From: Kitasatospora phosalacinea
GTDB taxonomy: Bacteria; Actinomycetota; Actinomycetes; Streptomycetales; Streptomycetaceae
NCBI RefSeq assembly: GCF_000716545.1
Contig: NZ_JNWZ01000063.1
Location: 1 to 40,529 of the forward strand
DNA length: 40,529 bases
Direction: 5' to 3'
Position numbers and translations under genes: made by a program
Shown here: in pieces, positions 24,318-26,672 of the stretch
Numbering within the stretch: the stretch's first letter is position 1
Layout: every line of letters starts with the position of its first letter
The notes under the pieces: model-generated
What the model was told of the DNA's origin: nothing
Seen by the model: the letters and a program-made list of their open reading frames with translations, nothing else
Databases searched by the model: none

Positions 24318-25673
24318 ATGAGCGCTGCAACCCCGCTCCCGCAGGAGCGCCGACTGGTCACCGCGATCCCCGGCCCGAAGTCGCAGGAGCTGCAGTCTCG
24401 CAAGCTCGGCGCGGTGCCGGCCGGCGTGGGCACCACGCTGCCGGTGTACGTGTCGCGGGCCGGCGGCGGCGTGCTGGAGGACGTGGACGGCAACAGCCTG
24501 ATCGACTTCGGTTCGGGCATCGCCGTGACGAACGTGGGCAACAGCGCCGCGGCCGTGGTGGCGCGGGCGACCGAGCAGCTGGCCGCGTTCACGCACACCT
24601 GTTTCATGGTGACCCCGTACGAGGGCTACGTGGCGGTGGCGGAGCAGCTGAACGAGCTGACCCCGGGCGACCACGACAAGCGCACCGCGCTGTTCAACTC
24701 GGGTGCCGAGGCGGTGGAGAACGCGGTGAAGATCGCCCGCGCCTACACCAAGCGGACCGCCGTGGTGGTGTTCGACCACGGCTACCACGGCCGCACCAAC
24801 CTGACCATGGGCCTGACGGCGAAGAACATGCCGTACAAGCAGGGCTTCGGCCCGTTCGCGCCGGAGATCTACCGCGTCCCGGTGGCGTACCCGTACCGCT
24901 GGCTGACGGGCGCGGAGAACTGCGCCGCCGAGGCGGCCGCGCAGGCGATCGAGATCATCAACAAGCAGATCGGCGCGGAGAACGTCGCGGCGGTCATCAT
25001 CGAGCCGATCCAGGGCGAGGGCGGCTTCATCGAGCCGGCCAAGGGCTTCCTGCCGGCGATCGCGGAGTTCGCGAAGGCGAACGGGATCGTGTTCGTGGCG
25101 GACGAGATCCAGACCGGCTTCTGCCGCACCGGCCAGTGGTTCGCGTGCGAGGACGAGGGCGTCGTCCCGGACTTGATCACCACCGCGAAGGGCATCGCGG
25201 GCGGTCTGCCGCTGGCGGCCGTGACCGGCCGGGCCGAGATCATGGACGCCGCGCACTCGGGCGGCCTGGGCGGCACCTACGGCGGCAACCCGGTGGCGTG
25301 CGCGGCCGCGCTGGGCGCGATCGAGACCATGAAGTCCGAGGACCTGAACAGCAAGGCGCGGCGCATCGGCGAGGTCATGCTGGCCCGGCTGCGCGAGATC
25401 CAGGAGAAGTTCGCCGACTCCGACCGGGTGCGCATCGGCGAGGTCCGCGGCCGCGGGGCGATGATCGCGGTGGAGCTGGTGAAGCCGGGCGGCAAGGAGC
25501 CGGACCCGGAGGCGACCGCGGCGGTCGCGAAGGCCTGCCACGCGGAGGGCCTGGTGGTGCTGACCGCCGGCACCTACGGCAACGTGCTGCGCTTCCTGCC
25601 GCCGCTGGTCATCCCGGAGCACCTGCTGGCCGAGGGCCTGGACATCCTGGAGTCGGCCTTCGCGGGCGTCTGA
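24318..25673 (+). CDS. gabT: 4-aminobutyrate--2-oxoglutarate transaminase
   Basis: 451 residues, class III PLP aminotransferase. It transfers the amino group of GABA to 2-oxoglutarate, giving succinate semialdehyde and glutamate. Family features include NSGAEAVENAVKIAR, the HGYHGRTNLTMGLT segment, IIEPIQGEGGF, the PLP aspartate in FVADEIQTGFCRTG, and the Schiff-base lysine in TTAKGIAGGLPLAAV. GGAGAAGACAG precedes the ATG. It stands alone on the plus strand, followed by its own hairpin terminator. Confidence 0.94.
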   Translation: MSAATPLPQERRLVTAIPGPKSQELQSRKLGAVPAGVGTTLPVYVSRAGGGVLEDVDGNSLIDFGSGIAVTNVGNSAAAVVARATEQLAAFTHTCFMVTPYEGYVAVAEQLNELTPGDHDKRTALFNSGAEAVENAVKIARAYTKRTAVVVFDHGYHGRTNLTMGLTAKNMPYKQGFGPFAPEIYRVPVAYPYRWLTGAENCAAEAAAQAIEIINKQIGAENVAAVIIEPIQGEGGFIEPAKGFLPAIAEFAKANGIVFVADEIQTGFCRTGQWFACEDEGVVPDLITTAKGIAGGLPLAAVTGRAEIMDAAHSGGLGGTYGGNPVACAAALGAIETMKSEDLNSKARRIGEVMLARLREIQEKFADSDRVRIGEVRGRGAMIAVELVKPGGKEPDPEATAAVAKACHAEGLVVLTAGTYGNVLRFLPPLVIPEHLLAEGLDILESAFAGV

Positions 25674-25706
25674 GCCCGGTTCGGCACACGGAAACCCCTG
25701 GTGAGC

Positions 25707-25752
25707 GGCGCGGGGGCCGGGCGGGGCGGATCCCGTCCGGCCCCCGCGCGCC
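25707..25752 (+). terminator. gabT terminator hairpin
   Basis: CGCGGGGGCCGG (25709-25720) pairs with CCGGCCCCCGCG (25737-25748), 12 bp, with a GC-rich inner stem in the loop. It starts about 34 bases after the gabT stop. There is no U-tract. Confidence 0.65.
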
Positions 25753-25921
25753 GGGCCGCCGGCCGGGTGGGTGGAGGTTGCCCCGCCGGTGGTGAAGATG
25801 CTGTGCACGATGGCGGGTCCGCCGTCGCGGGCCCCGGCTTTGACGTACTGTCATCACAGATGGACAGCGAACAGCACCCACTGCCCACCACCCCGTCCGC
25901 CGTCGAGGCGGACGCACAGGA

Positions 25922-26024
25922 CCGATCGACCGGCCGCCCCGCCCACACCCCCCGGGCCGCGCGGATCGGCGATCACCTTGGCCGCCCCGGAGCTCTCCCC
26001 CCTGCTCCGGGGCGGCCGGTTTTT
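25922..26024 (+). ncRNA. Candidate 6C-family small RNA with intrinsic terminator
   Basis: Two hairpins each expose exactly six consecutive cytosines. The first has C6 at 25948-25953, closed by GCCC/GGGC (25941-25944 with 25954-25957) or by CGGCC/GGCCG, inside an outer stem CCGATC/GATCGG (25922-25927 with 25964-25969). The second has C6 at 25997-26002 in a 10-nt loop closed by a perfect 14-bp stem (25980-25993 with 26004-26017), followed by GGTTTTT, a textbook terminator. Two C6 hairpins, the second a terminator, is the definition of the actinobacterial 6C RNA class, known in Streptomyces and mycobacteria. Upstream, TTGACG (25840-25845) and a -10-like TACTGT (25846-25851) are possible promoter parts, and an extra hairpin lies at 25894-25914. 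The 5' end is not defined by sequence alone. Confidence 0.62.
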
Positions 26025-26036
26025 GCTGTCCTGGCC

Positions 26037-26672
26037 ATGACACTGACGGTGGTGCTGGCCGTCGTCTCCTGGCAGGTGGCGGTGGACGGTCCGCTGCTGG
26101 GGCTGGACACGGCGGTGCGCGACGGGGTGCGGCACCTGCGCCGGGCGATCGGCTCGGCGCCGCTGAACCACCTGGGCGTGGCGCTGTCGGACCTGGGCGG
26201 CGCCCTGGTCGCGGTCCCGGTGCTGCTGGGGTGCGCGGGCCTGGCGGCCCGGCTGGCCCGGCGCGACGGCCGGCCGCGCTGGTGGGTGCCGGTGCCGGTG
26301 GCGGTGGTGGCCGCGGTGCTGGTCCCGCTGCTGGTGGTGCCGGCGAAGACCTGGTTCGCCCGCCCGGGCCCCTACGGGGTGCCGCTGGCCGGGGACCAGT
26401 GGGGCTGGTACCCGTCGGGCCACACCGCGACCTCCTCGATCGCGTACGGGACGGCGGCGCTGCTGCTGGCCCGGGTGCTGCCCGCGGCGGCCGGGCGGCT
26501 GGGCGCGGCGGCCGCGCTGGTGTGCCTGGGGGTGGGGGCGGGCCTGGTGTGGAGCGACTTCCACTGGCTGCTGGACGTGGTGGCGAGCTGGTGCCTGGCC
26601 GGTCTGCTGCTGCTCGGGCTGCACCTGCTGCTGCCGCGCCTGCTGCCCGACCGGCCCCGACCTGCCGACTGA
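26037..26672 (+). CDS. PAP2 superfamily membrane phosphatase
   Basis: 211 residues from the ATG at 26037. PAP2 enzymes dephosphorylate lipid phosphates such as undecaprenyl or phosphatidyl phosphates. The signature runs VPAKTWFARPGP (KxxxxxxRP), WYPSGHTATSSIAYG (PSGH) and SDFHWLLDVVASW (SxxxHxxxD), so the active site is complete. Five or six membrane spans are visible. The start is uncertain: there is no ribosome binding site at 26037, the first span would be slightly short, and an in-frame ATG at 25860 would run through the 6C-like hairpins. The gene begins 13 bases after the terminator U-tract, so it needs read-through or a promoter inside the RNA element. Confidence 0.85.
   Translation: MTLTVVLAVVSWQVAVDGPLLGLDTAVRDGVRHLRRAIGSAPLNHLGVALSDLGGALVAVPVLLGCAGLAARLARRDGRPRWWVPVPVAVVAAVLVPLLVVPAKTWFARPGPYGVPLAGDQWGWYPSGHTATSSIAYGTAALLLARVLPAAAGRLGAAAALVCLGVGAGLVWSDFHWLLDVVASWCLAGLLLLGLHLLLPRLLPDRPRPAD

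Follow-up and report, generated by a model that had tools for sequence, protein, structure and literature searches.

What is the double hairpin with cytosine-rich loops that lies between a gabT-like gene and a gene for a PAP2-family phosphatase in Kitasatospora phosalacinea: a 6C RNA, a regulatory leader of the downstream gene, or a small RNA (sRNA) of another kind? The window considered here (the whole stretch of DNA that was analysed) is 40,529 nucleotides long, and at positions 25922-26024 its sequence reads as two hairpins whose loops each hold six cytosines in a row (C6) plus one further C.

25924-25974, + strand: hairpin 1, an interrupted stem with loop ACACCCCCC at 25945-25953
25980-26017, + strand: hairpin 2, a perfect 14-bp stem (25980-25993 with 26004-26017) with loop TCTCCCCCCT; terminator-like
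26020-26024, + strand: U-tract TTTTT, preceded by GG after the stem of hairpin 2

Folding of 25918-26030 gives −67.3 kcal/mol (z −5.57), and 0 of 200 shuffles reach so low a value. The sequence-only reading, which had described two C6 hairpins, the second with a 14-bp stem and a U-tract, is borne out by the letters and by the fold, and the coordinates agree with its placing the end of the stretch 13 nt before an ATG at 26038. A perfect stem of at least 7 bp closing a C6 loop occurs in the window, both strands considered, only as hairpin 2; 40 dinucleotide shuffles of the window yielded a mean of 0.65 and a maximum of 4 C6-loop hairpins with stems of at least 7 bp, and none with a stem of at least 12 bp. 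The terminator-like end stands on a real C-loop double hairpin.

6C RNAs are defined by two hairpins with at least six cytosines per loop (available text of PMC8388888), and in this respect the earlier assignment to that class stood, the element having two such hairpins; it did not stand in the covariance score. In the RF01066 check proposed with that assignment, nothing in the window reached the gathering score of 47 bits, the 501 bases that surround the element (25660-26160) stayed without a match even at E ≤ 10, and the element is absent from the model's 10 genome-wide matches (lowest 20.6 bits); the lack of a covariance match had been named in advance as refuting, and it applies to the name 6C, so that membership was rejected on the covariance score. 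The genomic place of 6C is that of scr3558 beside SCO3558 (excerpts of PMC8539372). The element lies between gabT and PAP2, and the canonical 6C of the K. phosalacinea genome (RF01066, 55.7 bits) is on another contig (C40), so the context does differ from the known one, as had been suspected. That canonical copy has for neighbors what we take to be a CpaE-like and a HAD-like open reading frame (ORF). The further suggestion of a second, here diverged, copy of 6C fails by the RF01066 score and is very unlikely: the two RNAs have in common the plan of paired hairpins with C runs and a nearly identical loop 2 (letters CUCUCCCCCCUG as in the 6C consensus), and our own model of the element gives the canonical 6C a weak 28.6 bits, but hairpin 1 of the element is longer and interrupted, the element stands within codons, the canonical copy is elsewhere in the genome, and the cross-match is no better than those of other GC-rich hairpins (L006, 35.9 bits; L002, 32.4 bits), which both outscore the canonical 6C, so that low scores of this model are uninformative.

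The 6C label is unsupported, yet the element is conserved as a structured RNA.

25921-26016, + strand: conserved structured RNA element, inside PAP2 codons (model R2, 94.3 bits, E 3.4e-14; covariation; frozen synonymous sites)

Among 30 loci of the same genus the element forms a nearly invariant block, with a mean column identity of 94%. A covariance model (R1) built from these 30 Kitasatospora loci matches 264 of 297 genomes of the family, with a single match in each genome listed, and 107 of the 121 genomes of the largest genus (g23), the weakest of which (G309, 41 bits) is doubtful; g23 is probably Streptomyces, judging by RF02832 matches (see below) and by the names among the listed pattern matches. 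Scanning named contigs with a pattern gave at least 118 stretches, and the 80 that carry titles among the matches listed are all from Streptomyces or Kitasatospora. Relatives of the PAP2 protein itself were found in 52 of 61 genomes, K. phosalacinea counted. Outside the family, 0 of 15 genomes of the same order matched at E ≤ 0.1, and in a sample of the class 40 of 394 genomes matched, 37 of them in Streptomycetaceae and 3, all weak (38.0–39.6 bits), in family f11.

The f11 matches were rejected as the same element, because they form a distinct double C-loop hairpin and lie elsewhere (L134:1501-1569; L135:1501-1567 and L136:1501-1570, both − strand). They have at least six C in each loop run and directly follow what reads as an NlpC/P60-like ORF, with a c-di-AMP riboswitch (RF00379) further upstream. 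Yet another double C-loop hairpin, at L002:1506-1590 (− strand), is matched at the DNA level in 29 of 37 Kitasatospora genomes, has no Rfam match at the gathering score, and is flanked by ORFs that by their sequence resemble aldehyde dehydrogenase and uridine kinase. These two further cases suggest that 6C-like loop pairs are wider in actinobacteria than one Rfam family.

Covariation was assessed in 91 aligned loci (77 distinct rows). In this alignment, which was fitted to the model and takes the best 30 of 107 g23 loci (29 used, one being a repeat), so that its figures favor structure, 96.2% of cells are paired and 18 of 29 pairs show two-sided changes, amounting to 133 cells where shuffles give 35.5 (none of the 500 as high); when the partner is slid along, just 3–7 pairs and 6–22 cells show such changes. 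Two-sided changes affect 12 of the 13 modelled pairs of the hairpin 2 stem. Three pairs of hairpin 1 are poorly paired (failing in 36, 21, and 13 of 77 rows), and RNAalifold omits them, leaving 26 pairs, of which 15 change on both sides; in all 91 loci this hairpin keeps its C6 run and the CCC and GGG that flank it without variation. That the element is a structured RNA we regard as virtually certain.

The relation of this RNA to the downstream gene turns on where PAP2 begins.

25860-26672, + strand: ORF of 270 aa, PAP2-family phosphatase (Pfam PAP2, 49.5 bits, residues 149-259), with a proposed nearly leaderless ATG
25846-25851, + strand: −10 box TACTGT (TAnnnT), 8 nt before ATG 25860, by sequence reading

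The database entry starts the gene at 26038 (211 aa), and the element had been read as lying upstream of PAP2. It is in frame with PAP2 from the ATG at 25860, however, and hence within the ORF; this ATG is most likely the start, judging by the frame and by the −10 box, which follows the TAnnnT consensus found on average 6.3 nt from the start site in Streptomyces lividans (available portion of PMC8079986). The hairpins would then occupy approximately codons 22–53 and are not a leader before PAP2. In 86 of 91 loci the element's frame continues as far as PSGH, a PAP2 motif; the other five have a contig end (L050), frame breaks (L076, L102, and L111), or an ORF in between (L105). When any ATG 6–11 nt behind a TAnnnT was counted in the 170 nt upstream, regardless of frame, 84 of the 91 loci had a single such ATG, and 82 of these 84 are in frame, at 15 different spacings from 28 to 133 nt (the out-of-frame cases are L076 and L105). 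The seven loci without the expected ATG are L028 (CTG), L072, L075, and L077 (ATC or ATT), L112 (TTG), L111, and L088, in which an ATG stands 160 nt away and its −10 box outside the 170 nt searched. Among the at least 118 named stretches, 93 were long enough, of which 85 have an in-frame ATG and 82 of those reach PSGH (11 failures); here the ATG was chosen for being in frame, and the periodicity of its spacing arises partly by that selection.

In 81 aligned PAP2 genes the freezing of synonymous sites is confined to the element, the mean third-base entropy of fourfold codons being 0.149 in the element vs. 0.80 in the rest of the gene in Kitasatospora (40 sequences; p 6e-11) and 0.328 vs. 1.09 in Streptomyces (32 sequences; p 1e-10); in Kitasatospora, GC3 drops from 0.965 to 0.72 within the element. 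Translation through the element in most species is very probable, and the frame evidence weakens the reading of a noncoding stretch followed by a PAP2 start at 26038. Among the 120 listed of 233 PAP2 relatives, some of which are annotated as undecaprenyl-diphosphatase, 28 database entries contain the element-coded peptide (pattern HTPR or close to it) and 15 start with MDS; since the entries begin at differing places, PAP2 start codons in databases are probably often misplaced. The locus makes a strong case of a structured RNA that overlaps codons in most sampled genomes of one bacterial family.

The region upstream of the PAP2 start is conserved as well.

24318-25673, + strand: gabT-like class-III aminotransferase (Pfam Aminotran_3, 421.8 bits), the upstream neighbor
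25792-25805, + strand: upstream box GTGAAGANNNTGTG, 68 nt before the PAP2 ATG; possible activator site

A gabT match was found in 19 of 20 fetched loci of the family. Behind gabT, a GC-rich hairpin without a U-tract (25709-25749), which has a chance Rfam match on top of it, is probably the gabT terminator. The GTGAAGANNNTGTG box has one match in the window, where none is expected, and is present in 80 of 83 loci, either 68–70 nt (41 loci) or 80–82 nt (39 loci) before the ATG; the two positions are about one helical turn apart, which suggests a putative activator bound there. As a regulon-wide site the box was rejected, its matches not being clearly more than in the reversed control (5 vs. 5 in the genome, 22 vs. 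10 in four relatives).

The same locus in Streptomyces is the source of an sRNA, Scr5676 (RF02832).

25858-26024, + strand: predicted sRNA of about 165 nt, counterpart of Streptomyces Scr5676, placed by the position of RF02832 at orthologous loci

RF02832 scores at or above its cut-off of 56 bits at 5 of 10 and 9 of 16 fetched sources, and the window is without a match at E ≤ 10; genes in the window are arranged as at the Scr5676 locus, and the −10 box 8 nt upstream of the ATG would place a transcript start close to it. The five matches of the 10-source set begin 2 nt before the PAP2 ATG, and all 14 (e.g., L069:1881-2010) end 10 nt inside the element, within hairpin 1. Judged from these positions, the reported Scr5676 seems to be the 5′ part of the PAP2 transcript, with an Rfam model that is probably truncated on the 3′ side and omits the structured half. 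In the parts of the literature at hand, scr5676 is among 11 S. coelicolor RNAs with confirmed expression, its S. ambofaciens homologue was predicted both as untranslated region (UTR) and as noncoding RNA and was counted as an sRNA (PMC8388888), S. lividans SLIV_10247 (RF02832) is marked as transcribed (PMC8079986), and 12 earlier sRNAs resembled highly expressed 5′ UTRs (PMC3765725). An overlap of Scr5676 with PAP2 code is not mentioned in the available portions of PMC8388888 or PMC8079986, and the excerpts obtained on Scr5676 and its locus hold no description of C-loop hairpins or PAP2 overlap. Judged by gene order alone, PAP2 would be the counterpart of SCO5675, for which a literature search returned no paper. 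Scr5676, an orphan among Streptomyces sRNAs, can now be linked with a conserved C-loop structure as well as with a single gene, PAP2.

Does the double hairpin act as a terminator? A GC-rich stem followed by a U-tract, as in an intrinsic terminator, is present at 25980-26024. In the window's Kitasatospora clade 14 of 16 loci have TTT within 18 nt after stem 2, as do 22 of 40 in Streptomyces and 1 of 26 in the other Kitasatospora group (background at most 0.6%; 9 loci from other genera left out). The structure outlasts the U-tract in evolution, and since 25 of the 26 loci in that last Kitasatospora group lack the tract, termination is not the sole role. On the model of a stem with a U-tract, partial termination at hairpin 2 is fairly likely in the window's lineage. 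A conserved antiterminator pairing was not found, the longest complement between the arms compared being 9 nt in the window and at most 8 nt in the other 90 loci; the 9-nt complement was rejected as an antiterminator because it is not conserved. An attenuator gated by the ribosome would need no alternative pairing.

The RNA and PAP2 are apart at several loci. The PAP2 match starts 910 and 883 nt after the element in L129 and L132, and 725 nt after it, behind an ORF of 278 aa, in L105; in L131 no PAP2 was found within the 1.5 kb examined. In L076, PAP2 is 189 nt away in a different frame, and in L128 the frame of the N-terminal part is separate from that of PAP2. The lower-scoring Streptomyces loci L128–L132, which look closely related, so that the uncoupling may represent few events, keep hairpin 1 and have, by their sequence, a second C-loop hairpin further downstream. 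Retention of the hairpins without an adjoining PAP2 (L105, L129, L131, and L132) argues for a role of the RNA beyond PAP2, and such loci allow cis and trans roles to be tested separately.

We consider it reasonably probable, taken as a whole, that these features belong to a nearly leaderless PAP2 transcript with the hairpins in its first codons and either an sRNA or an mRNA as its outcome. A promoter ending in TACTGT would start this transcript at the ATG (25860) of PAP2, a membrane phosphatase; its first ~60 nt would be ordinary codons, and the next 96 nt codons that also fold into the two C6-loop hairpins. Hairpin 2 and the U-tract would stop part of transcription and release an sRNA of about 165 nt, the counterpart of Scr5676, and polymerases that read through would make the PAP2 mRNA. 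If a ribosome followed the polymerase closely, it would keep the hairpins covered, and translation of the N-terminal PAP2 codons could then determine how much sRNA is made relative to mRNA; we infer such gating as a natural link between the translated N-terminus and termination. The released sRNA might act in trans by its C-loops on G-rich ribosome binding sites, as the C-loops of mycobacterial 6C RNA reportedly do. This action, proposed by analogy, has in our estimate slightly less than an even chance, and the genome is 75% GC, so C-rich loops have many possible partners. More tentative is the full combination, in which the 96 nt would be both PAP2 N-terminal codons and a 6C-like regulatory RNA, the N-terminus would serve as a leader peptide, ribosome traffic would choose between trans-acting sRNA and mRNA, and a few Streptomyces would have been left with the RNA alone; we regard this as possible and doubtful.

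The other explanations divide these features differently. A purely cis-acting attenuator of PAP2, the short RNA being waste, would account for the in-frame overlap, the U-tract in many species, and the single match per genome adjoining PAP2, but L105, L129, L131, and L132 retain the hairpins although PAP2 there is displaced or was not found, invariant C6 runs in the loops exceed the needs of a terminator, and no alternative pairing is conserved; it is unlikely. The uncoupled loci, which speak against that attenuator, favor an independent trans-acting sRNA to which PAP2 was fused downstream by accident, with little or no translation through the hairpins, as do the filing of RF02832 as an sRNA and the retention of the hairpins in lineages without the ATG. 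This explanation seems to us still less probable, since it leaves aside the frame-keeping spacing of the ATG in 82 of 84 loci and the continuation of the frame into PAP2 in 86 of 91.

In-frame translation of the region in most loci would also be expected if the constraint lay on the protein (an Arg/Pro-rich N-terminal tail) or on the DNA (a palindromic binding site) and not on RNA. Two-sided pair changes far above those in shuffles and slides, frozen synonymous sites, and a frequent stem 2 swap of A-U to G-C (45 and 30 of 77 rows) that changes Ala/Ala to Thr/Val in the protein make this extremely improbable. The preferred reading remains the nearly leaderless PAP2 transcript with hairpins among its first codons.

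Among the closest known systems, Scr5676 shares the gabT-PAP2 locus and is transcribed in Streptomyces, as far as the available text of PMC8388888 and PMC8079986 reports; its RF02832 model, unlike the window's element, is without both C-loops. The trpL and leuL attenuators of Streptomyces, which have leaderless leader peptides (available portion of PMC8079986), resemble the PAP2 element in their leaderless start, translated stretch, hairpin, and U-tract, as that portion describes them; in contrast to them, the translated stretch of the PAP2 element is the enzyme's own start, no stop codon precedes the hairpin, and the element has no conserved alternative pairing. VcdRP of Vibrio is a dual-function sRNA (excerpts of PMC8672173). 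Compared with what those excerpts relate of VcdRP, the PAP2 element codes for the beginning of a full-size enzyme rather than for a small protein, and its regulatory role is a proposal; like VcdRP, it is a single RNA that codes for protein and may also base-pair.
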